A stretch of DNA of 52,844 bases from NCBI GenBank assembly GCA_017518185.1, contig JAFWWB010000011.1, positions 1 through 52,844 on the forward strand, in the 5' to 3' direction. A model generated the notes under the pieces. That model did not search any database and had not been told where the DNA came from. It saw nothing but the letters and a program-made list of their open reading frames with translations. Positions 13,061 to 45,207 of this stretch are shown here, piece by piece (within the stretch, counting starts at the first letter, position 1; each line of letters opens with the position of its first letter). This DNA is from Lachnospiraceae bacterium. GTDB taxonomy: Bacteria > Bacillota > Clostridia > Lachnospirales > Lachnospiraceae. The position numbers were made by a program, and so were the translations under genes.

Positions 13061-13085
13061 TATAGTTCCAATCCTTTCAACTCTT

Positions 13086-13221: not shown

Positions 13222-13227
13222 ATCCTC

Positions 13228-13956: not shown

Positions 13957-13972
13957 TGCCTTCCCCTCATCC

Positions 13973-15097: not shown

Positions 15098-15128
15098 TAT
15101 CCTTCTCCTGTCATTTCAACTTGTATGA

Positions 15129-18187: not shown

Positions 18188-18196
18188 CGCTATCAC

Positions 18197-23223: not shown

Positions 23224-23661
23224 TCAAATGTACTTTATCGCCAGATCAACATATTCCTCATTCGTCCGCACATACCTGTTCTCATTCACAATAAATATCT
23301 CAAAAGGCTGATGATCCCTGAACCGCATGATATACTTCAGATTGATCGTAATATCCTTATCTTTGCCCATCTCGATGAGCCATTTGGCACAATTTCCCCC
23401 GCAACTGGTAGCATCAAAGACTAATTCAGGGTTCTCGTAAATGCTGATCAGTGTCTTCAATCCTCCCGAAAGATTCAATGGCGAAATCGGTCCCAGTACT
23501 TCACTTTCTATATACTCACCGTCAATATATCTGGATTTATCAACAGACTCGATCATTTTTTGCACTAACTCATCATGAAACCAGGTAATCTCATAATTAT
23601 ACTGAAACCATACCGGCCCATACAATGCCTTTTCATTCTCACCAAATACTATCTTAAGCAT
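23224..23661 (-). CDS. DUF4869-like 145-residue protein, module copy 2
   Basis: It is a paralog of 18197-18634 and 37689-38126 with the blocks MLKIVFGE, VDKSRYI, NLSGGLKTLI, ATSCGGNCAKW, DITINLKYIMRF and VNENRYVRTNEEYVDL. One deviation is CGGNCA, where the other two copies have CGDNCA. In this copy the gene order is reversed: the ATPase gene (23681-24661) comes first and this gene follows 19 bases later, behind GGAAAATGGAGA. Sequence divergence from the other copies is substantial throughout, so this is an old duplication or a separate acquisition rather than a fresh copy. Confidence 0.82.
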   Translation of the reverse strand: MLKIVFGENEKALYGPVWFQYNYEITWFHDELVQKMIESVDKSRYIDGEYIESEVLGPISPLNLSGGLKTLISIYENPELVFDATSCGGNCAKWLIEMGKDKDITINLKYIMRFRDHQPFEIFIVNENRYVRTNEEYVDLAIKYI

Positions 23662-23680
23662 TCTCCATTTTCCTCATTTT

Positions 23681-24661
23681 TCAATCCTTCGTATACAACC
23701 TTCGGATCGGCTCCGGCATCGCAGCAATAATGGCCTCCCTATTCTTTCCCGTTGAATAAAACGGCAGCAATTTAACCTTACTGTACCGCCGGACTGGGTC
23801 ATTCTCCGTAATATGCATCAACAACGATGTGAAATACCGTTCCCAACTGAAATACTCTTTACTGTCTATGTATTCCTCCGGATGAGCAAGTATCCTGTCA
23901 AGATTCTCGCCCATAATGATCCCCGATTTTAGGATCAGCCATTCAAACGATTCCGGAAGATACAATATGACATTCGTTTTATTCTCTGCAACTGAAAGCA
24001 ATCCGTCCATATAAGCCCCGAACGCAGCACCATCAGCTATCACCACAACTTCCGTGTCCAGCTCACTCAACACTTTTGCTATACCGGAGTTTCCTCCGGC
24101 ACTGCGGCATATAGAATCACCGAAAGCATTTCTGTAGAAGTCAAGTCCCGAACCGGAGTCCTCCAATAAAAAAGTGTATTTGTTATTTACAGTATTCGGC
24201 AAAGCATTATCATAAATATGATAGAATTCGTGGTACACCTTCTCCGGGAAATGATATCTCCCTGTAGTTTTTATTCCGTAAACCTCATCAATACTGTATG
24301 GAAGATTAAATAACGGCCGTCTGGTGATGATCACAAAATAATGGCTGCAGGAACATGCATAACGTGCGAATTCCTCGCCAAAGACAAACGGATGATCCTC
24401 ATCGATAAAAACAATACTATCTTCCACATCAACAAAAAACGACTGCCATTTTTCACCTGTGGCGGCAAATACAACACAGGGGACGTCAGACTCCAGCTTT
24501 ATCCCCCCATTCTCCCCGAATCTCCCATAAGCTGACAGCAGCTCCACCATGGTTGTCTTTCCGGTAGCACTATCCCCAAGGATAACTGTTATGTTTCGTT
24601 TTATATCAAACTCGTATCTAAGCCGCTTTGTTTCCAAAACGATGTGATGCTTTCCTCGCAC
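23681..24661 (-). CDS. P-loop ATPase with TOPRIM-like half, module copy 2
   Basis: The protein has 326 residues and starts at GTG 24661, with GGAAAGGA upstream. Walker A is GDSATGKTT (about 29-37), Walker B SIVFIDED (about 81-88), followed by FVIITRRPLFNLPYSIDEVYG. The second half has FLLEDSGSGLDFY, VVVIADGAAFGAYMDG and YLPESFEWLILKSG, then WERYFTSLL and a YSK motif near the end, all shared with copies 1 and 3. It precedes its DUF4869-like partner, unlike the other two copies. The upstream neighbour is a broken methyltransferase gene, so this copy lies at the edge of the IS66 debris. Confidence 0.82.
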   Translation of the reverse strand: MRGKHHIVLETKRLRYEFDIKRNITVILGDSATGKTTMVELLSAYGRFGENGGIKLESDVPCVVFAATGEKWQSFFVDVEDSIVFIDEDHPFVFGEEFARYACSCSHYFVIITRRPLFNLPYSIDEVYGIKTTGRYHFPEKVYHEFYHIYDNALPNTVNNKYTFLLEDSGSGLDFYRNAFGDSICRSAGGNSGIAKVLSELDTEVVVIADGAAFGAYMDGLLSVAENKTNVILYLPESFEWLILKSGIIMGENLDRILAHPEEYIDSKEYFSWERYFTSLLMHITENDPVRRYSKVKLLPFYSTGKNREAIIAAMPEPIRRLYTKD

Positions 24662-25755: not shown

Positions 25756-26772
25756 TCAAGCATTGGAACGGCGATTTAGTTCCTTATTGACTATTCTCCG
25801 CTTCAGATTTTTAATATATACCATCCCTTTTGGGGATAAACCAACACATATTAGATATATCTTTTCTTTTAACCCTATATCTACAAACAGCGGCGTAAAT
25901 ATGTGTCTCTTCGAAAACATATAACAATACCTATATAAATTTGTATTTATTCGTTTTTTATTTTCTCTAGTGATATAACACAAAACACCAAATAATACTC
26001 CCCAAATATGATATTCTACTGCATGTGCAAGTCGGAGGTTATCTTTTCTCAAAAACACTTTTTGTCTGTATATTGAGCGAATTCCACACAATTCATTTCT
26101 CAAATTGTACTTTCTCATGGCACTATTAGGATTATTTACATAATGATACAATAAACTATGCCCACAAGGAACCATTTGGGTCTTAGTTAAACATTTTATA
26201 TTGAAAAGCATTCCCTCTCCATACCAAATATCCTGATCAAAACGTATGTTATTATGTTGTAAAAACTCCCTCTTATATATCTTGTTCCATACCGCCATAA
26301 AAATGCGATTTAGATATATCATTTCAATAACCCGCTCATTATCATATATATCATATAAACCTGTTTTCTTTCCTCTTACATCATTACAAGGATGTTCTTC
26401 TCTATAGTAAGTATCACTAACTGCAAGATCATACCTTCCACTTTTGATGATTTTTACAAAATTCGAAACATAATCCGTTTCTACATAATCATCCCCATCA
26501 ACAAACATTATATATTCACCACTTGAAGCTTCTATCCCCGCATTTCTGGCAAATGATACTCCCCTATTAGCTTGACTAATGAGTATTATTCGATCATCAA
26601 TTCTACTCATTGATTCAGCTATCTCCCCGCTACGATCCGTTGAACCATCGTTTACAAGTATTATCTCTAACATACCATATCTTTGATTTCGTATGGATTC
26701 TATTGTATTATGCACATACTGCTCTACGTTGTAAATTGGAACAATAACGCTGACCAGCGGATACCTATTCAT
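25756..26772 (-). CDS. Family 2 glycosyltransferase
   Basis: The 338-residue protein starts PLVSVIVPIYNVEQYVHNTI, the classic GT2 N-terminus. It has EIILVNDGSTDRSGEI (nucleotide-binding aspartate), NRGVSFARNAGIEASSGEY and the DXD-type MFVDGDDYVETDY (residues about 93-105). A GT-A domain of about 220 residues is followed by a C-terminal helical part. It adds a sugar from a nucleotide donor to the lipid-linked repeat unit on the cytoplasmic side. The start overlaps the preceding pyruvyl transferase stop by one base (TAATG). The gene is visibly AT-rich compared with the rest of the window and is the last gene of the glycan locus before the IS66 debris. Donor and linkage cannot be predicted. Confidence 0.92.
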   Translation of the reverse strand: MNRYPLVSVIVPIYNVEQYVHNTIESIRNQRYGMLEIILVNDGSTDRSGEIAESMSRIDDRIILISQANRGVSFARNAGIEASSGEYIMFVDGDDYVETDYVSNFVKIIKSGRYDLAVSDTYYREEHPCNDVRGKKTGLYDIYDNERVIEMIYLNRIFMAVWNKIYKREFLQHNNIRFDQDIWYGEGMLFNIKCLTKTQMVPCGHSLLYHYVNNPNSAMRKYNLRNELCGIRSIYRQKVFLRKDNLRLAHAVEYHIWGVLFGVLCYITRENKKRINTNLYRYCYMFSKRHIFTPLFVDIGLKEKIYLICVGLSPKGMVYIKNLKRRIVNKELNRRSNA

Positions 26773-27878
26773 TAATTTTCCCCCATTCCCTTTAGATTAC
26801 TTAAAAAATCATAAGATTTTTTCCTATGCATATCCATTAACTTATAAGTTTTTTCATAATCAATTGAATCTGGAACATACAAATACTCATCTCTATCAAA
26901 ACAGTGATTGTTTATCTCCAATTTATTCATAAGACTAACTATCTTCTCACTTCCAAAAGAATTATAAACAGCATAAAATTCCTTTTTGAATAGAATTGAA
27001 AATACACAGGCATGAAATGACGACGTAAAAATCACTTCAGCATATTTAATTAAAGATAACCATTCCTCCACTCCAGCCGAATCAAATATTATAGCATCTT
27101 TGATTTTTCTTTTTCCTCCAGGACAACACTTGATCGAAGCCAACTTTAAATTTTTCTTTTTAGCATAATCTGAAGCGTACTCAACAAGCTTTTCATTCAG
27201 AACCACACAATATACTAATACATACTTTTCCTTAATCATTCTTTCAGAAGTAATATTCTCATACTTTTCACAACCATATAATAGTGTCGGATCAAGTACA
27301 GTTTCAACATTATACTTACTAAATTTTTGGATGTAGCTTTGCTTCTCTGTTTCTCTTACCGATAAATACTTGAAGTTATCTAGTAATTTCGGTAGCATAT
27401 TTTCAATAACATCGCTAAATCCATTTCTACTCATACTAGGTCCATATGCCATGTTATTTTCTTTTTTCATCCCCTCGTATGCGCAAAAATATGCATCCTC
27501 TATCCCCTCCCAAAAATCTTCATTCCATACAATGTCGCTTCCAACAACAAAACCATCAACGTCTAAAGATCCAATATTATTTTTATCGCATAAACTTGAA
27601 ATTTCGTAATAATCTCTATAGAACCTTTGAAACTTTGTATCTCTTATATAATAATTCTTTGAATCAAGGAGATAATCCATTCTACGTATATGATATGGAA
27701 GTACTCGTAAAAATGGGTACTTTGCATAATTCCACTTCATCAACTTAGGCTTAAAATTTACTATATAAGCTTCAACACCTATGTCTTTCAATGCGTTTTG
27801 TAAGGCCCATGATTGCAATACTGAGCCCCAATTATTATCTCTTTGATACAGGTTTAGACTTAAAATACCATACTTCAT
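26772..27878 (-). CDS. Polysaccharide pyruvyl transferase family protein
   Basis: The 368 residues begin KYGILSLNLYQRDNNWGSVLQSWALQNALKDIG, the characteristic start of the PF04230 family (N.GSxLQxxALQ). Other family features are FVVGSDIVWNEDFW, YGPSMSRNGFSD, LSVRETEKQSYIQKF and VLDPTLL, then IFTSSFHACVFSILF (about 290-304) near the active site. The enzyme class transfers pyruvate from PEP to a sugar as a ketal, adding negative charge to the glycan; some members act on other acceptors. It sits between the flippase (8 bases) and the terminal GT2 gene (one-base overlap), so it is in the operon. It is AT-rich like its neighbours. Confidence 0.88.
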   Translation of the reverse strand: MKYGILSLNLYQRDNNWGSVLQSWALQNALKDIGVEAYIVNFKPKLMKWNYAKYPFLRVLPYHIRRMDYLLDSKNYYIRDTKFQRFYRDYYEISSLCDKNNIGSLDVDGFVVGSDIVWNEDFWEGIEDAYFCAYEGMKKENNMAYGPSMSRNGFSDVIENMLPKLLDNFKYLSVRETEKQSYIQKFSKYNVETVLDPTLLYGCEKYENITSERMIKEKYVLVYCVVLNEKLVEYASDYAKKKNLKLASIKCCPGGKRKIKDAIIFDSAGVEEWLSLIKYAEVIFTSSFHACVFSILFKKEFYAVYNSFGSEKIVSLMNKLEINNHCFDRDEYLYVPDSIDYEKTYKLMDMHRKKSYDFLSNLKGMGEN

Positions 27879-29475: not shown

Positions 29476-30363
29476 TTACATTATATATCTAATTCTCACT
29501 CTCATAAATAATCCACTAATCGTCGCTTTTACAACCGTTTTGATTTTTGTCATCTTATGATCTGTCCTGCCAAAAAGGATTTTTGTCATCAGATAACCAT
29601 GATATAACAACCTCCTGCAGAGAAGAAACGGTCCTCTCATTTTGTCGGTAACCGTATTATTTCTGTAGAAATAAAAGAACCTGTCTATTCTATCCTTAGG
29701 AGTAGTCATTATATCCACTCCAATGTTTTCCTTCATATGATGGTGAACAGTACTTCCACCCACAGAATAGCCATGGTAACCGGAACGCAGTATCCTTGTT
29801 GAATACTCGCCATCATCTCCCCAAATATAGTATTCTTTTATAGGCAAGCCTACGTCTTTAACCACTTTAGCGGGGATCAACATCGCAACAAACGAAGTGT
29901 GCGAAACCTCAATTATTCCCTGTTTTATATACTCATTCCATACACTAACGGTTCTTGATACATTCATCACACACGGAGAATCATCTTTCCACAATACATT
30001 GCTGGCCAGAAAACCGACCTGCTTCTCTTTTAACACATCTGCTGCATCAATCAGTTTCTCCAGTGCATCATCCTTTGCTATAGTATCGTCATCCATGATC
30101 CATACATAATCACAGTCCTCTTCGTATGCCCTTTTTATTCCATGGTAGAATCCGCCGGCGCCTCCGAGATTCTTCTTAAGATTCAACACAATGATTCTGT
30201 TATCTTTTGAGATATTTTTCAGATAATCCCTTGTCCCATCTGTGCTGGCATTGTTTACAATAATAATCCTGTTCAGACAAAACGTCTGCTCCAACAAAGC
30301 ACCTATTGACCGTTTCAATAAATCCAATCGATTATATGTTACAACAACTGCATTAACTCTCAT
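29476..30363 (-). CDS. Family 2 glycosyltransferase, galactofuranosyl/rhamnosyl transferase-like
   Basis: The 295 residues begin MRVNAVVVTYNRLDLLKRSI; ATG 30363 is preferred because GAGGGATG lies correctly before it. IIIVNNASTDGTRDYL, KKNLGGAGGFYHGIK and VWIMDDDTIAKDDALE (residues about 88-103, DDD as the metal site) are the marks of the GlfT2-like subgroup of GT2. YYIWGDDGEYSTRI and STVHHHMKEN follow. It is a paralog of 33361-34275 with the same motifs in the same order. The role is sugar addition to the repeat unit, possibly galactofuranose or rhamnose. It starts 19 bases after the end of the glycyl radical activase gene. Confidence 0.92.
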   Translation of the reverse strand: MRVNAVVVTYNRLDLLKRSIGALLEQTFCLNRIIIVNNASTDGTRDYLKNISKDNRIIVLNLKKNLGGAGGFYHGIKRAYEEDCDYVWIMDDDTIAKDDALEKLIDAADVLKEKQVGFLASNVLWKDDSPCVMNVSRTVSVWNEYIKQGIIEVSHTSFVAMLIPAKVVKDVGLPIKEYYIWGDDGEYSTRILRSGYHGYSVGGSTVHHHMKENIGVDIMTTPKDRIDRFFYFYRNNTVTDKMRGPFLLCRRLLYHGYLMTKILFGRTDHKMTKIKTVVKATISGLFMRVRIRYIM

Positions 30364-30382
30364 GATCATCCCTCAAATCTAT

Positions 30383-31204
30383 CTATATAACACAAAGCTC
30401 TGCTCGTATACCCAGTTCATCAATTTTTTTCAAATACCATGTAATCCAGACTTTGCTAACATCATAACAAATAATCCGCGGACTTTCTATTCCTAGTGCC
30501 TCGTATTTTGATCTGCCCAGATCATGTTCTGGCAGGATTTCCACCATACTTATTCTGTCCTTATATCGATCAAGAAGGTCCAATACCTTCTCCTGGTTAT
30601 CAGAGTCATCTGTAAATCCCCCGATAAATGGTATACGTACTACAACGTTTTTTCTTTCCTCATAGTTCATTAGAAAATCCAGATTTCTCAGATAATTTCC
30701 TATATCGCCCCCCACTATTTTTTTTGCCCGCTCAGGATTTAATATCTTAACATCTACATAAAAAATATCCACCAGTTCACAAGCCTTTTTTATTTTTTTT
30801 TCATCCACAAAAAGCGCCGTTTCAACAGCAATACTAATACTATTTTCATGTAATCTCATACAAACCGGTTCGAGGCGGTCTATTTGAAGCAACGGCTCAC
30901 CACCGGAAAACGTTACCCCTCCCGGGTAATCAATCATGCCGGTCTTAGCCCGGTCAAACTCCCCATAAAAGACTCTGTCTTTCAGAAGCTCTGTGAGAAG
31001 CTCGTCAACGCCAATATATCTGCCGAAAACACCCGTTTTTCCGTCCTTATGATACTGCTGGAACTCAGAACTGATGTTTTCAGGATTACTGCACCATGGG
31101 CAATGCAGGCTGCATCCCTTCAAAAATACCGTCGTCCTTATCCCCGGCCCATCATGTAACGAAAACCTTTGAATATTGGTGATAAGTATCTTTTCCTTCT
31201 TCAC
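30383..31204 (-). CDS. Glycyl radical enzyme activating enzyme (radical SAM)
   Basis: The 273 residues show the activase signature FSLHDGPGIRTTVFLKGC and the cluster motif CSLHCPWC (CX3CX2C; residues about 31-38), then NPEN. SGGEPLLQ (about 100-107) binds SAM. The protein lacks the two-cluster ferredoxin insert (CX2-5CX2-4CX3C) carried by most activases other than that of pyruvate formate-lyase: after NPENIS it runs into KDGKTGVFGRYIGVDELL. It uses SAM and a 4Fe-4S cluster to place a radical on the glycine of the partner enzyme. Start GTG 31204 overlaps the TGA of the glycyl radical enzyme gene as GTGA, so the two are translationally coupled. Confidence 0.92.
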   Translation of the reverse strand: MKKEKILITNIQRFSLHDGPGIRTTVFLKGCSLHCPWCSNPENISSEFQQYHKDGKTGVFGRYIGVDELLTELLKDRVFYGEFDRAKTGMIDYPGGVTFSGGEPLLQIDRLEPVCMRLHENSISIAVETALFVDEKKIKKACELVDIFYVDVKILNPERAKKIVGGDIGNYLRNLDFLMNYEERKNVVVRIPFIGGFTDDSDNQEKVLDLLDRYKDRISMVEILPEHDLGRSKYEALGIESPRIICYDVSKVWITWYLKKIDELGIRAELCVI

Positions 31205-33219
31205 GCTACACTCTTTTCACTATTTAACGCCCGAAGTATCAATTGGTCTTTATAATCTTCAGGCAGTTCGTTAAAATATGCGCTGAACCCCCAAACACGC
31301 ACGATAAGGTCTTCATGTTTCTCAGGGTGTTTTTTTGCGTCTATCAACGTTGCACTGTCCATTATATTCATCTGCAGCTGATAAAAGCCCCTTTTTATCG
31401 CCCCCTCGATGAACATTTCAAACTTTTCCCTGTTATCAGAAATGATATTAGGCTGGACAAAAAAATCCGCTACATTTCCGTTGATATTGCACCCTCCGTA
31501 TGAAATATCAGAAGCAAATCCTATCAGTTCCGTATATCCTGCATCATCAGCTGAAATATGAGTTGAATATGGCATCCCGTTTTTTCTGCCGGCAATATCA
31601 GCTGTTTCTTTTTTCCCGGAAAGGATATAATCCGGGGAACTCAACCCAAATTTTATCTTCCCCCCCATACGATTTCTATACTCTGACAAAGTCATGTTGC
31701 ATACATGTATGATATGGTTTACAAGCATAATACTGTCTTTTTCGTCATGTCCGAATCTTCCAGGCAATGCTTTAAGCTTATCATAACACTCCCTATCATT
31801 TTCAAAATTCTCCTTACGTTTCGTTTCCAGAGCCGAAAGCGAATACTCTTTTTTTCTGAAACAAAGCTCCCTGATATTCAGCAGGCTGTCACATACTGCC
31901 CCCATTCCCACTGTTGTAAAACCAAAATTATTATAATCAGCGCCGCCTCGGGAGATGTCCTTCCCTTTTATTGTGCATGAATCCGTGAATATCGAAACAA
32001 GTGGATCTTCCGCCCATACATAATCATCCAGTCTCTTAACAAAAGCCTTCAGTTCCTTGAAAAGAGTCCTATCATATCCTCGGATCAGTTCTTTAAAGGA
32101 ACTGATCTGCTTCAGATTGGCTCTTTCCAAATGGTCAAACAATACCTTAGCCAGATTAAAACTCAGAATATTGTTCTGATCAAGACTTTTCCCTGAAACG
32201 AAGGGTTCCCAACAAGCTGAAACACAGTAATCATAGGCATCAGACTCCGCATAACCAAACTCTTTCATTTTTTTGATAATAATATCATCATTAGAAAAAA
32301 TCGGACTCCCTGTCCTTGCCAAAAGGCAGTCGGTCGCCTTTTTTATTAAGCTTTTAGGCATCTTTTCACTGACACGGAGCATGATCTTCGGATCAGGATA
32401 AGCCAGTTCTTTATGGGCCCGCAGGAACAATTCCGTCAATTCATTGCTAAAGTAGTTACCATCATCCCCTATCCCACCGAGAATTATGATCTGACCGATA
32501 TCGCCCATCAGCGCCGCGCTTTTAAACTCATAGTTCTGATGCAGGCATTTAATAAAGTCACAGATAAGATCATATGCTTCTTCTTTTGTCAAATACCCAT
32601 CTTCGATATCTTTCAGGTATAAATCTCCCAGTATCCTGTCTATCCGGCCGATTCCATTCAACCTGTGGCGTGTCTGCCACATTATCTGGTTAAAAAACAG
32701 GATACGCTGAAGTCCTTCCGCAAAGTGTTCTGCTTTCCGATCAAGTATATCCTCAAAGTATCTCAATACAGACGTATGATGCCCCTTTTTTAACAATTCC
32801 ACTATCCTGCTGTGCAATATATATACAGCTTCCCTTATCTTACGCGCATTGCTTCCGTATTTTCCGCCTGCGCTAACCGCCAGGCAGGCGATCTCCCTGA
32901 AACTTCCATCGATGATCTTTCGGTAGTCCAGCGGGAAATTGCTAAGTATGTTTCCTCTTACGGCAATCGTCTTTTTTTCATCTATGTGGTAATAAAACGT
33001 CAGGGCAGGATCATAACAGACATCAACAAGTTTCATAAGCTGAAGCGTATCATCAGCAACATTCCGTTTTTTTGCGGAACTTTTGATCACTTTTGTACTC
33101 ATAGCTATCGAAAGTGCTTTTCGTACAAAACAAACCGTACCTTCAGTTTTATATTTTGTCGTCAGCGGTATGATATAACTGCATCTGAGATTATTCTTTA
33201 TCCACAGTTTAATACCCAT
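31201..33219 (-). CDS. Glycyl radical enzyme of unknown substrate inside a glycan locus
   Basis: I start at ATG 33219 (MGIKLWIKNN; 672 residues) because GGGGAG precedes it at good distance; ATG 33249 lacks a site. The glycyl radical loop is clear at the C-terminus: IVRVWGFSAYFNEL (G about 650). The cysteine loop is SACWEPFVSGKS (about 335), with a Cys-X-Glu arrangement as in the eliminating enzymes (diol dehydratases, CutC, HypD), whereas pyruvate formate-lyase has Cys-Cys. GGADYNNFGFTTVGMGAVCDSLLNI is another family segment. At 672 residues it is shorter than most members (about 780-850). Its activase follows at once, and GT2 genes flank the pair. I infer a radical dehydration or C-X lyase reaction on a glycan precursor or small polyol; the substrate is unknown. 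Confidence 0.88.
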   Translation of the reverse strand: MGIKLWIKNNLRCSYIIPLTTKYKTEGTVCFVRKALSIAMSTKVIKSSAKKRNVADDTLQLMKLVDVCYDPALTFYYHIDEKKTIAVRGNILSNFPLDYRKIIDGSFREIACLAVSAGGKYGSNARKIREAVYILHSRIVELLKKGHHTSVLRYFEDILDRKAEHFAEGLQRILFFNQIMWQTRHRLNGIGRIDRILGDLYLKDIEDGYLTKEEAYDLICDFIKCLHQNYEFKSAALMGDIGQIIILGGIGDDGNYFSNELTELFLRAHKELAYPDPKIMLRVSEKMPKSLIKKATDCLLARTGSPIFSNDDIIIKKMKEFGYAESDAYDYCVSACWEPFVSGKSLDQNNILSFNLAKVLFDHLERANLKQISSFKELIRGYDRTLFKELKAFVKRLDDYVWAEDPLVSIFTDSCTIKGKDISRGGADYNNFGFTTVGMGAVCDSLLNIRELCFRKKEYSLSALETKRKENFENDRECYDKLKALPGRFGHDEKDSIMLVNHIIHVCNMTLSEYRNRMGGKIKFGLSSPDYILSGKKETADIAGRKNGMPYSTHISADDAGYTELIGFASDISYGGCNINGNVADFFVQPNIISDNREKFEMFIEGAIKRGFYQLQMNIMDSATLIDAKKHPEKHEDLIVRVWGFSAYFNELPEDYKDQLILRALNSEKSVA

Positions 33220-33264
33220 GCTTTTGCTCCCCTCATTTCTGCAATCCATCTTTCACGCCACTAT

Positions 33265-33360: not shown

Positions 33361-34275
33361 TCAACCGCCCTCATTCCTTTTCTTATTCACATTTCTTATC
33401 TCCGGTCTGAAGGTCAGCCCCTCCCTGAAGCCTTTAAATACCACCGCTATCTTCCTGAAGCTGTCATTTTCCGAACGCAACAGCACGTTCATACATGCGA
33501 TTATATCCTTAAGGATTACGTATACCCATCCCCTCAGGCCGAACTGCCGGTAACAGTCCACATCATTCCGGTAGAGCAGGTGATACCTGTCGATCCGCTC
33601 CGGTGATTCTACGGCAAAGTCAGCCTTCTTATTCTCCTTCATTGCATGCGTCACAACACTATCTGTGATGACATATATCGGATAATGCTTTGATATCCTT
33701 CCGCTGTATTCGTAATCATCCGACCAGATGAAATACTCTCCTTTCGGCAATCCCAGCCGTTTTACCGCGGACGCTCTTATAAGCATCGAGACAAAGCTTA
33801 TCATCTCACATCTTACCGGCTCCTTCTGCCTCAGTTCCCTGTCCGAAGCGAATGTGAAGATCGTCTTCTTCTGTCGGTTGGCCCTGCATATGTTTCCATC
33901 CGTCCATTCCGCCACGCTGGACAATGCTCCCCATCTGCCCTTAAGGGCATGTCCTCCCCGAAAAAGCTTTTCCAGACTGTCATGGCGCGGGATGGTGTCG
34001 TCATCCATGACCCAGATATATCTGTAGCCGTCCCTTACTGCTCTCTCCATGCCCAGTTGAAAGCCTCCGGCTCCGCCCAGATTTGCACCGCTGTTTATAT
34101 ATTTTACCTCTGGCCGTGCAAACTCAGTCGTGATCATCTCCCCGGTCCCGTCGCTACTGTCATTGTCAACAACATAGATATCACAACCCACCGTCTGTGA
34201 GAGCAGCGCCCTGAGGCATTTCCCCAGAAGCTCTTTCCGATTATATGTAACGACCACCGCCGCTGTCTTAAGCAT
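33361..34275 (-). CDS. Family 2 glycosyltransferase, galactofuranosyl/rhamnosyl transferase-like
   Basis: The 304 residues are a paralog of 29476-30363: KTAAVVVTYNRKELLGKCL, IYVVDNDSSDGTGEMI, SGANLGGAGGFQLGME and YIWVMDDDTIPRHDSLEKLF (DDD metal site at about 88-90). EYFIWSDDYEYSGRI, VVTHAMKENKKADF and ERIDRYHLLYRND follow, typical of the GlfT2-like GT2 subgroup. It is GC-richer than the distal glycan genes, close to the window average. It starts just after a broken copy of the module ATPase and ends against an AAA-ATPase tail remnant, so its borders have been reworked by recombination. Confidence 0.92.
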   Translation of the reverse strand: MLKTAAVVVTYNRKELLGKCLRALLSQTVGCDIYVVDNDSSDGTGEMITTEFARPEVKYINSGANLGGAGGFQLGMERAVRDGYRYIWVMDDDTIPRHDSLEKLFRGGHALKGRWGALSSVAEWTDGNICRANRQKKTIFTFASDRELRQKEPVRCEMISFVSMLIRASAVKRLGLPKGEYFIWSDDYEYSGRISKHYPIYVITDSVVTHAMKENKKADFAVESPERIDRYHLLYRNDVDCYRQFGLRGWVYVILKDIIACMNVLLRSENDSFRKIAVVFKGFREGLTFRPEIRNVNKKRNEGG

Positions 34276-34293: not shown

Positions 34294-34632
34294 TCAATTT
34301 CCCAATCTTGATACCAGAAGCTCCTCCGGTATCGTCTGCAGCACCATTCTCATGTTTCTTTCAGAAAGATAGTACAGGTTCAGCTTCTTCTTACTGTACT
34401 GCATCTCGGTTCCCATTGTTATCTCAGTGAGCAGTGCGGGATAGAACTGCTCCCAACTGAGGTATTGTACCGAATCTGCATAATCTGCAGTATTCCTTCC
34501 ATCTCAGAGCCAAACGCCGCCCCATCCACGATGGCAAGGCATCTCCGATCTTTTTTCCCCTGAGTGTTTCCAGTATCTTTGTTTTTCCTTCAGCAGAAAA
34601 ACATCTGTTTTATCCGCATACCCTTTTCATAT
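34294..34632 (-). pseudogene. Broken fourth copy of the module ATPase gene
   Basis: The sequence is nearly identical to parts of 36700-37161 (copy 3): the C-terminal coding part (stop at 34294) runs to about 34494 and then jumps to the part that encodes the DGAAFGPEM region. 121 bases are lost between two copies of GCAGTATT, shifting the frame. The right border at about 34632 is fused to the end of the Uma2 gene, whose last codons (KRVCG) come from this ATPase. The whole N-terminal half with the P-loop is missing. Confidence 0.85.
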
Positions 34633-35158
34633 CTATCACCAGTCCATCACATATCGAAACCGGGATCTTTTCATCAAAACCATGCTTGCTCTGATCACCT
34701 GAAAAAAGCTCATGAACCAATATACACTGGGATATGGGATCTACGATCCAATACAGGCGCACGCCGCATTTTCTGTACTGATGCAGCTTCCTCAAGTAAT
34801 CCATGCTTTTACTTGACGGCGACACCACTTCTATGATCCAGTCAGGTGCCCCTTCACAGCCGCGATCGGATATCTTGCTCTTATCACATATCACCGACAC
34901 ATCCGGTTCAAGATAGGTTTCCTCATCCTTAGACAGGAACACCCCAAAAGGGGCCGGATAAACCGAACATTCTTTATGTGTGTTATCAATATGTTCAGAT
35001 ATCTTGTGAACAAAAAAAGCTACTATCTGCTGATGTATTGGGCTCGGTGCTGACATATCATACACCTCCCCATCTATCATTTCCATATGAACGCCTTCAG
35101 GGAGGTTGATAATATCTGCAATCGTAAACCTTTCATCACTGATATTTTTCGCATCCAT
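34610..35158 (-). CDS. Uma2-family (PD-(D/E)XK) putative endonuclease
   Basis: The 182 residues fit the Uma2 family (PF05685), whose fold is a restriction endonuclease core. The region HMEMIDGEVYDMSAPSPIHQQIV (about 24-46) carries the conserved glutamate and the P-S-x-x-H-Q motif. YLEPDVSVICDKSKI (catalytic Asp about 88), GAPDWIIEVVSPSSKSMDY and YRKCGVRLYWIVDP follow. The expected ExK lysine is replaced in this family by the IIEVVSPS strand. The last five residues (KRVCG) are borrowed from the adjoining ATPase fragment. Uma2 genes are multicopy in cyanobacteria and many anaerobes; their job is unknown. It follows the damaged AAA-ATPase gene on the same strand. Confidence 0.88.
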   Translation of the reverse strand: MDAKNISDERFTIADIINLPEGVHMEMIDGEVYDMSAPSPIHQQIVAFFVHKISEHIDNTHKECSVYPAPFGVFLSKDEETYLEPDVSVICDKSKISDRGCEGAPDWIIEVVSPSSKSMDYLRKLHQYRKCGVRLYWIVDPISQCILVHELFSGDQSKHGFDEKIPVSICDGLVIDMKRVCG

Positions 35159-35161
35159 CTC

Positions 35162-35310
35162 TCACACCACCTTCCACACCGACAGATTCCTTGTTCCGGA
35201 ATCAAACGCCGCCCCAATCTTTATCAGCTTTCTTTTATCCGCAGCATATATATCGGCATACCGCATGTCCGTTATCTGTTTCAGCGCAGCGTCGGCACTG
35301 TCAGTACATT
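35162..35310 (-). pseudogene. Out-of-frame nuclease tail of the damaged AAA-ATPase gene
   Basis: In the frame next to that of 35281-36531 the minus strand reads DSADAALKQITDMRYADIYA and then DKRKLIKIGAAFDS...NLSVWKVV before TGA at 35162. This is the end of a DUF1703-type PD-(D/E)XK domain (ALxQI...Y..IY..D.R.L..IG). The stretch that should carry the catalytic D and ExK is missing, so the front and back of one gene were joined by a deletion out of frame. Confidence 0.78.
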
Positions 35311-36531
35311 CCGTATACCCTCCGTATTGCCGTTTTCCACGTACTCATCCAGAGTAAAGATATCGGCTCCCGTGCCTCCTGTACCTGCCGGTGCATACGC
35401 CGGGAGTAGACTTTCATAAAACCCGTACTTCACCTCTTCATTTGGAAAAGACAAAGTGTACTCGCGTCCTGTATCATCATAATCGGCTATAGTAAGGTAT
35501 CCGGTCTGGTACAGGAGCGGAACAGGATCTTCACCCTCTCCGGTATAGTCCTTGAGCATCCCTTCGCTCGCATAAAGCGTCATGTCCGTGAACTTTCTCA
35601 GATCAAAATCCCTATCCTTCAATTTCTTAAGAAGGAATGCCGGTGTGCCTGTCTCAAACCAGTAAGAACCGAAATCTTTGGATAATAATGCTTTCAGAAC
35701 ACTATACGGATTATATACGCCCTTTATTCCCGGATAGAAATGATACCCGTCATACTTCTGTTTTAGAACAGCCAAACACTCTTCTACCGTAAGACTTCTT
35801 CGCTTGGAAACGTTTTCGATCTCCTCTTCGAAATAAGTTTTTAATTCTTCTTCGGTAATGCCACACATAAGTGCATAATCTTCATCCAATGAAATATCGT
35901 TCAATTGGTTAAGGTCACTGAAAATGCTGACCTTATGAAACTTGGAGACACCTGTTATAAAAACAAACTGTATATACTCATCAAAGCTCTTCAGTGTGCT
36001 GAAAAAACCCTTGAATATCTCCTTATTGTGCTCACGCATTCTTTCGTTGTCAATGACATCCAGCAAAGGTTTATCATATTCATCCACGAGAACAACCGAA
36101 CGTAATCCCGTTTTTTTCTGAGCGGCTATGATAAGGTTGCGAAATCTCTCGCCAAGGCTCTGCCCCACCTCAGAGACAGGATATTCCTTTTCCCAGCGCC
36201 TTAGGTGTTCATCCAAGATATCACTGAGTCCGGATTCAATCTGATAATTACTGCCGTTAAAATCAAAATAGAAGACCGGATGAGGCTTCCAGGCCTCTGC
36301 ATTTCCCTCTTCCAGTCTCTCTATATCCAGGCCGGAAAATAATTCCTTTCTGCCTTCCCAATATGCCTTCATCGTGGAGAGCAGGAGGCTCTTTCCGAAT
36401 CTTCTTGGTCTGCTCAGAAAATAAGGGACACTATCACGCACAAGCTGATAGATATATGCCGTCTTATCAACATAAATAAAATCCTGCGTTCTGATCTTTT
36501 CGAATGACTGTATTCCTACAGGCAGTTTCAC
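35281..36531 (-). CDS. AAA-ATPase-like protein truncated before its nuclease domain
   Basis: This encodes 416 residues from GTG 36531 behind AAGGAGGGAC. It has the family front IQSFEKIRTQDFIYVDKTAYIY, P-loop variant SRPRRFGKSLLLSTM (residues about 40-54), Walker B VVLVDEYDKPLLDVI and FVFITGVSKFHKVSIFSDLNQL. The related gene at 19102-20709 shows that about 120 more residues with the PD-(D/E)XK core should follow. Here the frame runs out in VLTVPTLR, and the remaining tail lies in another frame. The ATPase part is intact, so a shortened protein may still be made, but nuclease activity is not expected. It lies between the Uma2 gene and a sugar transferase remnant. Confidence 0.75.
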   Translation of the reverse strand: MKLPVGIQSFEKIRTQDFIYVDKTAYIYQLVRDSVPYFLSRPRRFGKSLLLSTMKAYWEGRKELFSGLDIERLEEGNAEAWKPHPVFYFDFNGSNYQIESGLSDILDEHLRRWEKEYPVSEVGQSLGERFRNLIIAAQKKTGLRSVVLVDEYDKPLLDVIDNERMREHNKEIFKGFFSTLKSFDEYIQFVFITGVSKFHKVSIFSDLNQLNDISLDEDYALMCGITEEELKTYFEEEIENVSKRRSLTVEECLAVLKQKYDGYHFYPGIKGVYNPYSVLKALLSKDFGSYWFETGTPAFLLKKLKDRDFDLRKFTDMTLYASEGMLKDYTGEGEDPVPLLYQTGYLTIADYDDTGREYTLSFPNEEVKYGFYESLLPAYAPAGTGGTGADIFTLDEYVENGNTEGIRNVLTVPTLR

Positions 36532-36699: not shown

Positions 36700-37677
36700 T
36701 CAGATTCCCGATGCAGATACCAGAAGTTCCTCCGGTATCGTCTGCAGCACCATTCTCATGTTTCTTTCAGAAAGATAGTACAGGTTCAGCTTCTTCTTAC
36801 TGTACTGCATCTCGGTTCCCATTGTTATCTCAGTGAGCAGTGCGGAATAGAACTGCTCCCAACTGAGGTATTGCACCGAATCTGCATAATCCGCAGTATT
36901 GGAACACTTGTCTTTCAGCTCCCCGCCGGAGAAAAGGCCGCTGGTAAGCAGAAGATATTCAAAAGACTCCGGCGCATATACCTCCGCATCAGGATTCCTG
37001 TATCTGATATACTGCAGTATTCCTTCCATCTCAGGGCCAAACGCCGCCCCATCCACGATAGCGAGGCATCTCCGATCTTTTTCCCCCCTGAGTGTTTCCA
37101 ATATCTTTGTTTTTCCTTCAGCAGAAAAACATCTGTTTTCTCCGCATACCCTTTTCCAGAATTCATAACCCGAGTTGGAATCCTCCGTGATGACCACATC
37201 GGGCTTAAATCTCTTTACCGGTCTGATACCGTATATCCGGTAGAACTCGTTTTCGGTAAATTCGCCGGCTAATCCGGCATATTTACCGCGCATCCTTATT
37301 CCATATACTTCCGTAACACTGTAGGGAAGCGCCGACAGCTTCTCTCTGCTGATTATAACATAATAGTTATCAGATCCTTTAACTGCTTCCGCAAATTCAT
37401 CAGATAAGGCAAACCTGCTCTGTTCATCCAGGAACACTATAGAATCGGAGATCTCTCCGATCCTTTTTTTCCATTCTTTTCCGTAAAGTACTGCCAGTTT
37501 CTTATCACATTTAACGCTGACCCCGCTGTCCTCTTCTTCCTGATAGCTCCGTATCATCTCAAATAACGTGGTCTTTCCGCTTGCACTCTGCCCCCGTATA
37601 ACGGTAATGTTCCTGTGTATCTCAAATTCATAACGTATATACGCATTTTCAACGATCACACTGTACTGTCCGGTCAT
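36700..37677 (-). CDS. P-loop ATPase with TOPRIM-like half, module copy 3
   Basis: The 325 residues start MTGQYSVIVENAYIRYEFEI. Walker A is GQSASGKTT (residues about 29-37), where the other copies have GDSATGK. Walker B is SIVFLDEQ (about 79-86), then YVIISREKLSALPYSVTEVYG. The TOPRIM-like half has VVITEDSNSGYEFW, AIVDGAAFGPEMEG and YAPESFEYLLLTSG, then WEQFYSALL and YSKKKL. It begins 11 bases after its DUF4869-like partner and is in turn coupled to the sugar transferase gene, so this module copy is part of the glycan operon transcript. A nearly identical but broken copy is at 34294-34632. Confidence 0.83.
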   Translation of the reverse strand: MTGQYSVIVENAYIRYEFEIHRNITVIRGQSASGKTTLFEMIRSYQEEEDSGVSVKCDKKLAVLYGKEWKKRIGEISDSIVFLDEQSRFALSDEFAEAVKGSDNYYVIISREKLSALPYSVTEVYGIRMRGKYAGLAGEFTENEFYRIYGIRPVKRFKPDVVITEDSNSGYEFWKRVCGENRCFSAEGKTKILETLRGEKDRRCLAIVDGAAFGPEMEGILQYIRYRNPDAEVYAPESFEYLLLTSGLFSGGELKDKCSNTADYADSVQYLSWEQFYSALLTEITMGTEMQYSKKKLNLYYLSERNMRMVLQTIPEELLVSASGI

Positions 37678-37688
37678 CTATGCCTCCC

Positions 37689-38126
37689 TCAAAGGAAATC
37701 GATCCCAGCATCGACCATTTCCCCCATGTTACGGACTATCCTGTGATCGTTCAGGATCTCTATCTCAAAACTGTCCCTGTCAAACTCCATTATATGATGC
37801 AGGTTAATGGTCAGATCCCGGCTGTCTCCCAGCCTCAATATCCACTCGGCACAGTTATCTCCGCAATTGGAAGCATTGATCACACGGTCAGGACAATATT
37901 TCATAAGAATGACCGCTTTAGTCCCTCCCGAAAGTCTTGTAGGGGGTATCTGCCTGAGAACAGGGCTTTTGATACATTCAGGAGATTCCACCACAGACCT
38001 GTCCACCGACTCTATCACGCTTTTTACAAAGTCATCTTCCAGCCAGGCATAACTATATTGATTATTAAAAAAGCTCTCTACATTATGCAGAACGTTTTCC
38101 ATCTCTCCGAAATATATCTTAAGCAT
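37689..38126 (-). CDS. DUF4869-like 145-residue protein, module copy 3
   Basis: ATG 38126 shares its A with the TGA of the sugar transferase gene (TGATG), so the two are translationally coupled; the frame also extends upstream to 38273, but that part only shadows the transferase. The blocks are MLKIYFGE, WLEDDFVKSVIESVDRS, RLSGGTKAVIL, ASNCGDNCAEW, DLTINLHHIMEF and EILNDHRIVRNMGEMVD. It agrees with copies 1 and 2 in length and order of motifs. The function is unknown. The strict pairing with the ATPase in all three places suggests a two-component complex. Confidence 0.83.
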   Translation of the reverse strand: MLKIYFGEMENVLHNVESFFNNQYSYAWLEDDFVKSVIESVDRSVVESPECIKSPVLRQIPPTRLSGGTKAVILMKYCPDRVINASNCGDNCAEWILRLGDSRDLTINLHHIMEFDRDSFEIEILNDHRIVRNMGEMVDAGIDFL

Positions 38127-40069
38127 CACATTGCCCCTTCCTTGCTCCAGAGCGCTACCACTGTGATGATCATCAGCTTGATATCCGTTTTCAGGCTCAT
38201 TTCCGAGATGTATTTCAGATCCATCTCCACCCATTCGTCCCAGGGCACCAGCGCCCTGCCGCATACCTGCCATATGCAGGTGATGCCGGGCTTCACGGCC
38301 CAGCGCTGCTTTTCATAATCTTCAATCTCTTTATCCGTTGTCTGGATGGGTCTGGGCCCCACCAGGCTCATCTGCCCTTTAAGCACGTTCCAGAACTGGG
38401 GCAGCTCATCGATGCTTGTCTTGCGGATAAAACGCCCGACTTTAGTGATACGGGGATCATCCTTTATCTTAAAGGCCAGCCCGTTCTTATCCTCATCGGT
38501 GATGACTGCGCCGGTCTTCTTCTCCGCATCTATGCACATGGAGCGGAACTTGTGCATTGGGAAATACTTCAGATCCTTTCCGTATCTTTTCCCGCTGTAG
38601 ATCACGGGGCCGCCGTCCTCCAGCTTTATGGCAATGGCCGTACCGATAAAGGCCGGCAGAAGCAATATCATGGCCACTATGGATCCCACTATGTCCACAA
38701 GACGCTTCATGATCTTGTAAGAGAGAGGCTTCTTCCGGTACAGCTCCCACATGTCTATGCCTTCGTAGGCCCGCTTCAGCACTCCGTTCGCGTCCCGTTC
38801 CCCAACGTAGATATCCTGCGTTATGGGTACCGGCTCTGCCGGCGGTATCAGTGCTGTCAGGAGCAGCGGGAATATACTTATGCCCGGATTCAGAATGCCC
38901 TTCTGTATCACAAAGAAAAAAGCTGTGACGGCTATCACATACATACGGAAGGTCTGCTCCTTCTTCATAAGACGCCACTGCACCACAGTATAGATGACAA
39001 GAGCAAGTATAAGCCCCACCAGACCGTAGATCAGATAGAGTCTGGCATAGGAAGATTCAAGGAAATCCACGTCCGTCACTCCCGAGTAAAAGCTCTGCTC
39101 CGCATATGCATACCTGTCAAGGTAATTACCGAAAAATGAGAAGGGCAGCTCCTGCATGAGACGGTTCGGGACCGCCAGCCTGTTCTCCAGTATGCTGAAG
39201 AACGGAAGCTTCCTGATCCCCGACCAGCGCTCCTTATCATATGCGAACACCAGGGTAAAGAACAGCCCTCCGACTATCAGATGCGAAAAGCACAGCACGA
39301 GCCGTACCGGCTTCATCAGCTTCTCCGTTATCTTAAGACCGTGCTTCTTTACAGCTGTGCAGACTGCAGCCCCTGCAGTCACCAGTATGACCGATACAAG
39401 TGCCACCCTGCCGTCTATCAGCCAGATATTGAAAAGTATCACGGCTACGATCAGCAGGTAATCATACCATTTGATGATACCGCTTTTCAAAAACATCATC
39501 ATGAGCAGGACAAAGCACATGAATGCCGCAGCAGCCGAAACCCCGTAAAATCCCAGCGAATGCCTTATCCTTCCGGCCCTTTCCATGTTGTATTCGGGTA
39601 TCAGGCCGAAGATGCACACCACTGCCGTAAATATGTAGAGCACACTGACTATGGCTATGCTGTACGCTGCTATGCGTCTGAATTCCCTGCCGTAGGATGC
39701 CACGAGCAGCAGCATCAGCATCAGTATCGTATGATCGTTCCATTCTGCCATCAGCACAGAATAAACGATACCCAGGCCGATCATCGCCAGGGCAGTGATG
39801 CGTTCCCGCCACTTTCCCATCTCCATGAAGATGGTATAGACCGCCGGAACGAACATGAGCAGCCGTATGCTGCAGATCCCCTGAAATATAAGCCCGGCCT
39901 GTCCTGCAAACAGCTTAGCGAGAAGCTCCTCTGCATAGCCCGGAAAAGGGGTGGTCCTCAGCACCTCATAAATGAGTTCCAGCGCAAGGAAAAGATAAAA
40001 CATCTTCTCCATAAAGAGCCGGAGCTTATCCTGTTCGTTTTTCTTATCTGATATGTTCGAAGCCGTCAT
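38126..40069 (-). CDS. Fusion of O-antigen polymerase-like domain and phosphoglycosyl transferase
   Basis: Residues 1-420 form a Wzy/WaaL-like unit of about eleven membrane helices, related to the two proteins of the AEP operon (NRLMQELPFSFFGNYL, then SSYARLYLIYGLVG). Residues about 445-647 are a bacterial sugar transferase of the WbaP/PglC type. They have one membrane hairpin (IMKRLVDIVGSIVAMILLLPAF), KFRSMCIDAEKKTG, the catalytic DE pair in IDELPQFWNVLKGQMSLVGPRP and PGITCIWQVCGR. The second domain starts glycan synthesis by adding a sugar phosphate to undecaprenyl phosphate. The first would polymerise or transfer the finished repeat unit. Having first and last step in one polypeptide is unusual. 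A clear promoter lies upstream, and the gene opens the glycan operon. Confidence 0.9.
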   Translation of the reverse strand: MTASNISDKKNEQDKLRLFMEKMFYLFLALELIYEVLRTTPFPGYAEELLAKLFAGQAGLIFQGICSIRLLMFVPAVYTIFMEMGKWRERITALAMIGLGIVYSVLMAEWNDHTILMLMLLLVASYGREFRRIAAYSIAIVSVLYIFTAVVCIFGLIPEYNMERAGRIRHSLGFYGVSAAAAFMCFVLLMMMFLKSGIIKWYDYLLIVAVILFNIWLIDGRVALVSVILVTAGAAVCTAVKKHGLKITEKLMKPVRLVLCFSHLIVGGLFFTLVFAYDKERWSGIRKLPFFSILENRLAVPNRLMQELPFSFFGNYLDRYAYAEQSFYSGVTDVDFLESSYARLYLIYGLVGLILALVIYTVVQWRLMKKEQTFRMYVIAVTAFFFVIQKGILNPGISIFPLLLTALIPPAEPVPITQDIYVGERDANGVLKRAYEGIDMWELYRKKPLSYKIMKRLVDIVGSIVAMILLLPAFIGTAIAIKLEDGGPVIYSGKRYGKDLKYFPMHKFRSMCIDAEKKTGAVITDEDKNGLAFKIKDDPRITKVGRFIRKTSIDELPQFWNVLKGQMSLVGPRPIQTTDKEIEDYEKQRWAVKPGITCIWQVCGRALVPWDEWVEMDLKYISEMSLKTDIKLMIITVVALWSKEGAM

Positions 40070-40129: not shown

Positions 40130-40158
40130 ATTATACATCATTTCCGCTGTTATGTCCA
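40130..40158 (-). promoter_or_regulatory. Predicted promoter of the glycan operon
   Basis: On the minus strand TGGACA (40158-40153; five of six consensus bases) and a perfect TATAAT (40135-40130) are separated by 17 bases. The -35 box lies inside the last codons of jetD and the spacer contains its TAA. It gives the glycan locus its own start independent of the Wadjet transcript. Confidence 0.75.
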
Positions 40159-41376
40159 GCCACAGCAGGCGCTCACCGCCTCCTGTTCCAGCTTGATCCC
40201 TTCCTTCAGCATACAGTCGATCAGCTCCGCGATCTGACCGCTCTCATACCGTTCCCTGAGCTTGGCGAGCCTCTTCCTGTCGTTGGCAGTCAGCTCCCTG
40301 GCCTGAGTGCGGAAGCGCAGCAGCGTATCCCTGTCCATGTAGAGCGGCTCAAAGGGTATCCCGGTCTTCTTCCTCAGATGCTCCAGGATATAGAGCCCTC
40401 CCGCATCGATATCCCCGAAATGCAGGTATTCAATCCCCGGTGCGTCACTGTATATGAGCTGAAGCAGCATACGTTTTGTCCTGTTATGGAATCCGCCCAG
40501 ATATATCACCAGGGCCCCCGCATCCTGGTAGTCATGAAAGCTGGTCAGGTTTTCAACGGTGATCAGCTTCTTTCCCCACACTTCAACCCTCTTCACATTC
40601 TTAAGGCTTTCGGTAGAAAGGGCTATATCACCGCCCAGGGCTGTCAGATCTATGCTCTCATTCTCAAAAAGGAGCTTTGCCGCTCCCTTTAGCATTACAT
40701 AGGCCGGGGTACGCAGTATGCCCTGTTCCTCCAGCACGGTATTCTTATCTGCATAGTCTCCATAGGCGTATAAAAGGCTCTCTACCCTCCCCCGGTATTC
40801 CTCCGCCTTCTTTGAATCCCCGAAGAGCCTGACAGAAAAGTCACGGATAAAACATTCTTCATCATTTGCCAGGATCTCCCGAGTCATCTCAAGGAGTTCC
40901 CTGTATTCCTGTAGGTCACCGTCAAAGAATTCCACATTTTTATTAACGGCTATGCGTTCCAGCTGGGCACGGATATAGAGATCCAGCGCCGCGGTCTTTT
41001 CAGGGTGCATCGTATTTTCAGCCAGCATCTTCTCAAGAAGGGCTCTGAGCCCGGCCTGCATATCCGAGCGGGGGGTCCTGCCCGCGGCTCTGTATGCGGC
41101 ATCGATCCCATCCATCCTGAGCAGTATGCGCCTTATGACCTCTCCCCGCCCTCTTTCCACCGTTACAAGGCCGTCATGCTCCAGACCTGCTGCTGCCTCA
41201 TTGCATTCACGGAAGAAGGCATATTGTGAATCGTCGGCATAATCCGGGAACTGTTTTGCCATATCAAACTGCGGCAGGCGCCCGTTCCGGTTCACCCCAA
41301 GGAATCTGCGGCTGTGTTCATAACGGTCCAGCAGCACGCACAGTATTTCTTTTCCGATACGCCCCGTCCCGCTCAA
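40150..41376 (-). CDS. jetD: Wadjet system nuclease subunit JetD (TOPRIM)
   Basis: JetD is the nuclease of the Wadjet anti-plasmid complex; it cuts circular DNA after the SMC-like motor has extruded a loop. The 408 residues show an N-terminal arm (DUF3322-like) and a C-terminal TOPRIM domain (DUF2220-like). The conserved glutamate is in LITVENLTSFHDY (about residue 276), the DxD motif in YLHFGDIDAGGLYIL (about 323-337), and YLGGFHNRTKRMLL lies between. The ATG at 41376 overlaps the stop of jetC by four bases (ATGA). It is the last gene of the operon; no terminator is visible, and a promoter for the next operon overlaps its stop. Confidence 0.93.
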   Translation of the reverse strand: MSGTGRIGKEILCVLLDRYEHSRRFLGVNRNGRLPQFDMAKQFPDYADDSQYAFFRECNEAAAGLEHDGLVTVERGRGEVIRRILLRMDGIDAAYRAAGRTPRSDMQAGLRALLEKMLAENTMHPEKTAALDLYIRAQLERIAVNKNVEFFDGDLQEYRELLEMTREILANDEECFIRDFSVRLFGDSKKAEEYRGRVESLLYAYGDYADKNTVLEEQGILRTPAYVMLKGAAKLLFENESIDLTALGGDIALSTESLKNVKRVEVWGKKLITVENLTSFHDYQDAGALVIYLGGFHNRTKRMLLQLIYSDAPGIEYLHFGDIDAGGLYILEHLRKKTGIPFEPLYMDRDTLLRFRTQARELTANDRKRLAKLRERYESGQIAELIDCMLKEGIKLEQEAVSACCGWT

Positions 41377-45189: not shown

Positions 45190-45207
45190 TTTGATCCCCT
45201 TAAAGTG

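Follow-up and report, generated by a model that had tools for sequence, protein, structure and literature searches.

A putative glycan-assembly branch of the glycyl radical enzymes encoded in polysaccharide loci of anaerobes

A glycyl radical enzyme gene within a run of polysaccharide genes

The window analysed here is the whole stretch of 52,844 nucleotides of contig JAFWWB010000011.1 from a Lachnospiraceae bacterium. It encodes a glycyl radical enzyme (GRE) in a co-directional run of genes that extends from 34275 to 25756 in the order glycosyltransferase family 2 (GT2), GRE, activase, GT2, Wzx flippase, pyruvyl transferase-like protein, and GT2. A sequence-only reading of the window had described the GRE as a protein of about 672 residues with a C-terminal radical loop and a Cys-X-Glu active loop, lying between two glycosyltransferase (GT) genes and coupled through GTGA to an activase gene. 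The GRE and activase genes lie where it had placed them, both loops are present, and the gene arrangement was confirmed, with the flanking GT2 genes at 29476-30369 and 33361-34275. The relatives considered below are the best 80 of 156 found by scanning a genome-contig collection, which correspond to 78 distinct loci. Together with the window there are 79 loci, of which 78 are independent, since L045 and L084 share an identical GRE from one metagenome-assembled genome (MAG). Genes in the loci were called as longest open reading frames (ORFs), and contig ends truncate some of the GRE and control loci. The features of the window locus, all on the minus strand, are as follows.

38126..40069 (-): priming sugar transferase (Bac_transf; domain scan), in the wider polysaccharide region
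33361..34275 (-): second GT2, with the motif NLGGAGGF, upstream of the GRE gene; 172.6 bits to the hidden Markov model (HMM) of the fused GTs
31201-33249 (-): GRE ORF of 682 aa, with both the PFL-like and the Gly_radical Pfam domains over cut-off
31201..33219 (-): GRE from the ATG at 33219, 672 aa
32206..32214 (-): active-site loop C346-W347-E348, read from the sequence
31273..31299 (-): radical loop RVWGFSAYF, read from the sequence, with the radical glycine G654 at 31288-31290
30383..31204 (-): radical S-adenosylmethionine (SAM) activase of 273 aa, over the cut-off of TIGR02494, its GTG start codon sharing the letters GTGA with the stop of the GRE gene
31091..31114 (-): CX3CX2C motif for the radical-SAM cluster in the activase, read from the sequence
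29476..30369 (-): GT2 with NLGGAGGF and DDD motifs, downstream of the activase gene, of the type that is joined to a GRE in the fusions of loci L109 and L112
27887..29356 (-): Wzx-type flippase (Polysacc_synt), a recurrent neighbour of the GRE
26772..27878 (-): polysaccharide pyruvyl transferase-like protein, of a type that shows no enrichment near the GRE in other loci
25756..26772 (-): GT2, last gene of the co-directional run (domain scan)

The GRE is likely to start at the internal ATG at 33219 and to comprise 672 residues, because this codon is preceded by GAGGGG and an alignment of 73 rows shows the corresponding Met11 to be nearly invariant, in agreement with the length in the sequence-only reading. 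The rows are 73 of the 78 usable GREs; L052 and L059, which run into contig ends, the duplicate L084, and the two fusions were excluded. Residue numbers in this text follow the 682-aa ORF. The Gly_radical domain (PF01228) was matched with E 1.2e-13, and the GRE fold extends over the whole protein, which places it in the superfamily. The activase scored 223.9 bits against the general GRE-activase model TIGR02494 (cut-off 174.35) and stayed below the cut-offs of the specific activase models of the NCBIfam comparison. Many GRE activases carry a cysteine-rich ferredoxin-like insert after the CX3CX2C motif, whereas the window activase has none; likewise, 55 of the 65 parsed activases of the clade (5 of 70 were unparsed) have at most two cysteines at this site.

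A clade apart from the characterised classes

The window GRE missed all full-length NCBIfam GRE equivalog models: it reached 55-181 bits where the cut-offs are 994-1150. It lacks the Cys-Cys pair of pyruvate formate-lyase and reached 55.1 bits with that equivalog (cut-off 994.2), 181 bits with the choline trimethylamine-lyase (CutC) model TIGR04394 (cut-off 1050), 161.2 bits with the PflD/YbiW model NF007437 (PRK09983; cut-off 1109), and 171 bits with one further class model (cut-off 1100). The score with the PFL2/glycerol dehydratase subfamily model TIGR01774 was 211.1 bits, compared to a cut-off of 678.2.

The tree, built from 28 clade, 10 sister, and 11 reference rows, gave the same picture. 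Reference rows comprise sequences labelled by NCBIfam and, from E. coli, PflB, PflD, and YbiW; sister rows came from genomes of the window's family and represent 10 of the 11 sister loci (L123 was left out). The window clade is set off from all other rows by a branch supported at 100/100, with a stem length of 1.24, the sister clade is likewise supported at 100/100, and the reference rows fall apart from both (99/97), so that the clade is separated from CutC, HypD, PflD, and YbiW. Clustering with a characterised class, which the sequence-only reading had named as an outcome that would speak against it, thus did not occur with the characterised or labelled classes in this comparison.

An unlabelled GRE of 747 aa (L025:1489-3729; GCQEP and RVCGFSAYF) falls beside the two clades, at the end of a long branch (2.36). 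It does not reach the cut-off of any NCBIfam model listed for L025.

The Cys-X-Glu loop (C346-W-E348), which is of the eliminating-GRE type, occurs in all 28 clade rows, where the E. coli PflB row reads ACCVSP. C346, E348, G654, W347, W653, D250, Q253, and N360, as well as R, V, W, G, and S of the radical loop, are invariant in the 28 clade and 10 sister rows. N104 is found in 26/28 clade and 10/10 sister rows; at this position the reference rows have His (8/11) or D, E, or R. K243, D595, and H564 are invariant in the clade and missing from the sister and reference rows. Of the residues that we take to bind the substrate in glycerol dehydratase (H164, H281, D447, and Y640), three are matched by other residues in the alignment (H164 by N104, D447 by N360, and Y640 by S537), and the window GRE has no histidine aligned to H281, H195 being one column off; the residues of the glycerol/1,2-propanediol dehydratases are thus not kept. 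These replacements, together with the diversity of GRE chemistry in general, would suit an enzyme that is dedicated to glycans and is not a dehydratase, such as a radical epimerase, a mutase, or a C-C/C-N lyase acting on a sugar. The glutamate of the Cys-X-Glu loop is the acid-base residue of the eliminating GREs, and its invariance in both clades argues against such an enzyme, which we regard as improbable.

The sister clade (ACWE[F/V/I] / RVWGWS) shares with the window clade W347, W653, N104, D250, Q253, N360, and a short loop before GDxGQ, whereas it lacks K243, D595, and H564. Its members L116, L117, and L121 also differ in having sugar-catabolic neighbours: an FGGY kinase and a DeoC/LacD-family aldolase are adjacent in L116, class II aldolases are adjacent in L117 and L121, and L121 further has a fucose-isomerase-like protein and a PfkB kinase. 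L122, which lies next to a GlfT2-type gene, is exceptional; neighbours of the remaining sister loci were judged by eye. A scan of ten sister-neighbour proteins left one, in L120 (xylose-isomerase-like by eye), without a match at E 1e-10. In L118, too, the GRE lies by eye beside sugar kinase and/or aldolase genes, and the GREs of L116, L117, L118, and L121 are candidate sugar or alditol dehydratases giving deoxy-sugars.

Fusion to glycosyltransferases and conserved glycan context

Two relatives, L109 (989 aa) and L112 (988 aa), are single proteins in which a GT2 at the N terminus is joined to a GRE at the C terminus, each domain scoring over its Pfam cut-off; the active loops of their GRE parts read CWEI and CWEL, respectively. 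The window GT at 29476-30369 shows 52-53% identity to the two fused GTs and scored 372.6 bits against an HMM made from them, second only to L094 (381.2 bits) among unfused GTs. The fusions and the neighbourhood together argue that the GT and the GRE act on the same sugar.

A glycan gene lies within five genes of the GRE in 77 of the 79 loci; the exceptions are L043, where the GRE is beside members of clusters with representatives matching MptE-like and CTP_transf_3, and L052, where the contig ends. Of the 79 loci, 70 encode an activase and 51 a Wzx flippase, and in 44 loci a Wzx gene is no more than two genes away from the GRE. UDP-galactopyranose mutase is encoded in 30 loci, LicD in 13, and an IspD-like protein in 10. 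The activase gene is adjacent on the same strand in 49 loci, and the called ORFs overlap in 41 of these, a count inflated by longest-ORF starts.

The main controls were 40 GRE-free Wzx loci ranked by similarity to the window's Wzx; they are all from the window's family, whereas the GRE loci come from many taxa. Ten Wzx loci from the genomes of GRE carriers served as in-genome controls (11 were fetched, one of which had a second GRE). The 36 loci titled Lachnospiraceae include the window and genera that we assigned to this family. The p-values are uncorrected for multiple testing, and those near 0.05 carry little weight. The fused-GT type was found within 9 kb (E 1e-12) in 31/79 GRE loci and 1/40 controls (p 5e-6), in 28/76 when L109, L112, and L068 were left out (p 2e-5), and in 17/36 of the Lachnospiraceae-titled loci compared to 1/40 (p 4e-6); over whole flanks at E 1e-10, the counts were 33/79 and 2/40. 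DUF4422 proteins occur in 16/79 GRE loci and 2/40 controls, and a GT-like family designated c7 in 14/79 and 0/40. The fused-type GT, DUF4422, or c7 lies within five genes of the GRE in 48 of the 79 loci. UDP-galactopyranose mutase was more frequent in GRE loci than in controls (30/79 vs 4/40, p 0.001), and in taxa other than Lachnospiraceae its count was 24/43, compared to 2/10 of the in-genome controls (p 0.08).

The c7 proteins (L047:8742-9728, L054:7705-8643, and L038:12003-13037) are of about 330 aa with a DED motif, and their representative has no Pfam match. In some loci a protein of about 140 aa, the representative of which also has no Pfam match, is encoded directly upstream of the GRE (L097:9549-9998, L003:2991-3404, and L012:3499-3915); this family occurs in 8/79 GRE loci and 0/40 controls.

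Several candidate partners were rejected. The cytidine diphosphate (CDP)-polyol enzymes were not enriched in the control comparison (LicD 11/79 vs 11/40; IspD-like 9/79 vs 5/40), nor were the sialic-acid genes (NeuB and the CMP-sugar synthase) or the pyruvyl transferase. Genes for nucleotide-sugar dehydratases and epimerases were commoner in the controls.

The GRE interpretation of the sequence-only reading, an enzyme of a glycan locus, is supported by these results, and the GT2 fusions in relatives go beyond it. The clade is very probably a new branch of the GREs with a role linked to the assembly of glycans.

Distribution

Among the best 80 of 156 relatives, the carriers are Lachnospiraceae, MAGs of other Clostridia and Bacilli, Synergistota, Methanobrevibacter with seven records, one MAG of the Eggerthellaceae, and Breznakiella homolactica (L099), so that the loci span Bacillota, Synergistota, a spirochaete, and a methanogen genus. 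The complete genome of Breznakiella homolactica has a second such locus. Besides B. homolactica, the carriers with records that do not bear the title of a MAG include Lachnospiraceae NC2008 and P6A3 and Lachnoclostridium An196. The genome of the window also contains a second copy, designated C15, with 39% identity; it lies in another glycan locus, beside genes for its own activase, for a protein of 137 aa, and for a protein that by eye is GT4-like. The gene is patchy, since a match at E 1e-90 or better was found in 7 of 299 genomes of the family and 3 of 391 of the class, the window's own genome being included in both.

Such patchiness, and the sugar-catabolic loci of several sister members (some judged by eye), would be expected if a catabolic GRE had come by chance to lie inside a variable polysaccharide island. 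The sequence-only reading had counted catabolic neighbourhoods in other genomes as evidence against itself, and these did not appear: the glycan context is nearly universal in the clade, the GRE and activase ORFs overlap in most loci where they adjoin (with the inflation noted above), and the second copy of the window's genome again lies in a glycan locus. The GT-GRE fusions already largely refute a chance association, which we consider very improbable.

On the Methanobrevibacter contigs L101, L048, L053, and L072, the GRE and activase genes adjoin archaeal-looking genes. SRP19, which is archaeal/eukaryotic, is encoded on L101, and tRNA-guanine transglycosylase on L048; simple contamination is unlikely for L101 because SRP19 is on the same contig. 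The GRE glycan module was apparently transferred to methanogens. A scan of viral contigs for carriage by phages gave 27 pattern matches, none of which was a relative by tblastn.

Proposed chemistry

By its sequence, the locus encodes an eliminase-type GRE with its own small activase, in a run with GT2s and Wzx, with two fusions among its relatives and a clade of its own. The substrate is likely to be a sugar or a polyol. A deoxy-sugar or polyol-derived product is plausible because the relatives PflD and YbiW are active on sugars and sister GREs stand beside sugar kinase and aldolase genes.

The activase would place a radical on G654, from which it would pass to C346. The thiyl group of C346 would then take a hydrogen from a hydroxyl-bearing carbon, E348 would accept the proton of the hydroxyl group, and the neighbouring hydroxyl group would leave as water to give a deoxy-carbonyl sugar. 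The partner GT2 may either transfer the altered sugar or supply a residue that is then altered by the GRE, ahead of its flipping by Wzx. The most likely substrate would be a furanose with an exocyclic 1,2-diol, namely uridine diphosphate (UDP)-galactofuranose or a galactofuranosyl residue (C5-OH/C6-OH), and the products would be a 5-deoxy-6-aldehyde or a 6-deoxy-5-ketone. Galactofuranose, whose exocyclic C5-C6 diol resembles glycerol and would for this reason fit an eliminating GRE, is our best single guess.

Some GT partners are consistent with this proposal. The best single-sequence PDB matches of the window GT are galactofuranosyltransferases (E 1.8e-6). L068 encodes, in one run, Wzx, GRE, activase, a GlfT2-type GT, and UDP-galactopyranose mutase, and residues 31-430 of its GT (568 aa) match galactofuranosyltransferases of the PDB at E 9.5e-26. 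The deepest of the sampled sister rows, L122, has the gene of a GlfT2-type enzyme between those of the GRE and the activase; this enzyme matches the same enzymes at E 2.4e-26 over residues 10-605 of 611, with PF17994 over cut-off. A GlfT2-like HMM built from L122, L068, L109, and L112 found members (E 1e-12) in 8/79 GRE loci and 0/40 controls (p 0.05).

Several observations weigh against galactofuranose dehydration. The window GT at 29476-30369 scored 95.4 bits with the GlfT1 model NF050113 (cut-off 330), still its best-scoring NCBIfam model, and the best PDB matches of the GT profile are generic GT2s, with galactofuranosyltransferases lower at about 1e-7. Without the training loci L068, L109, and L112, the GlfT2-like HMM count was 5/76 (p 0.16). 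In taxa other than Lachnospiraceae, the fused-GT type occurred in 14/43 loci and 1/10 in-genome controls, which is not significant (p 0.25). The mutase occurred in 6/36 of the Lachnospiraceae-titled loci (p 0.5), and its enrichment is partly taxonomic; in the window's genome it is encoded on another contig. Genome-level co-occurrence of the mutase was dropped as support, 273 of the 299 family genomes having it. No reductase that would finish a deoxy-sugar was among the enriched neighbour clusters (clusters in at least four loci). Finally, the activity, the radical, and the product of the GRE are themselves predictions from sequence.

A glycan-dedicated GRE might instead act on another substrate, such as a free or CDP-linked polyol or another vicinal-diol sugar, or might cleave a ring C-O bond as PflD and YbiW do, with its product attached by the partner GT. 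The 49 of 79 loci that have no mutase in the flank favour this alternative, as do the variety of the GT partners (fused type, DUF4422, and c7), the sugar kinase and/or aldolase genes beside the sister GREs of L116, L117, and L121, and a profile search of the PDB in which a PflD was the best match (306.4 bits), with glycerol dehydratase close (285.9 bits). The lack of enrichment of LicD and IspD-like proteins speaks against the CDP-polyols, and transfer of a furanose is suggested by the enriched GT types and by the GlfT2s of L068 and L122. We give this alternative a substantial minority chance.

We tentatively favour a GRE subfamily for anaerobe surface-glycan assembly that acts by radical dehydration, most likely on a galactofuranose-type substrate, and rate this just short of an even chance. 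In its fullest form, the proposal would be that a class of surface sugars in anaerobic bacteria and certain methanogens arises through glycyl-radical chemistry that dehydrates galactofuranose to a 5-deoxy-6-aldehyde or 6-deoxy-5-keto furanose, the GRE being coupled or fused to a galactofuranosyltransferase for direct handover of the reactive carbonyl sugar; this would be the first glycan-building GRE branch, and we hold it rather unlikely that the whole of this version is right. A GRE clade tied to polysaccharide clusters would predict gut and rumen anaerobe surface sugars that are made only without oxygen, and the fused and neighbouring GTs offer a direct way to test which substrate is used.

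Other features of the window

Genes at 11942-16427 (-) encode a thiamine pyrophosphate enzyme, a nucleotidyl (NTP) transferase, a class V aminotransferase, and a CTP_transf_like/PEP_mutase fusion, and are likely to be a 2-aminoethylphosphonate set. The set adjoins genes at 9130-11945, which cluster with the priming-transferase gene at 38126-40069, and phosphonate decoration of the glycan is possible. In the region 40150-46626 (-), a domain match identified JetD of the Wadjet system; a 1081-aa ORF at 41373-44618 and smaller ORFs are candidate partners of JetD. A two-gene cassette (neighbour clusters 42 and 43) is present in copies at 17210-18634, 23224-24661, and 36700-38273 (-), the second gene of the third copy being recognised by eye. 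Inside the polysaccharide region there are also PF09820 AAA-ATPase-like and Uma2 genes at 19102-20709 (by clustering), 35281-36531, and 34610-35158 (-).

Comparison with known systems

PflD and YbiW are described in a review that cites Ma et al. 2024 as catabolic enzymes that cleave 1,5-anhydrohexitol-6-phosphates to 1-deoxyfructose-6-phosphate (PMC12441222), and the titles of their PDB entries name 1,5-anhydromannitol- and 1,5-anhydroglucitol-6-phosphate in the structures. They differ from the window GRE in length (765 and 810 aa in E. coli) and fall with the reference classes, away from the window clade. The B12-independent glycerol/1,2-propanediol dehydratases differ in having H164, D447, and Y640 in place of N104, N360, and S537. 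CutC, HypD, HPAD, and the other named GREs belong to the same superfamily and likewise depend on an activase, but the window GRE misses their equivalog cut-offs. Among titles and abstract openings retrieved for GREs with polysaccharide biosynthesis, exopolysaccharide, or glycosyltransferase, no paper on a GRE of glycan assembly was found. To our knowledge, GREs serve fermentation, hydrocarbon activation, the degradation of sulfonates, choline, and proline, sugar catabolism, and deoxynucleotide synthesis, and the anabolic GRE known to us to act on a sugar moiety is NrdD, the class III ribonucleotide reductase. A clade tied to polysaccharide clusters would add to these functions of the superfamily a role in the building of surface glycans.

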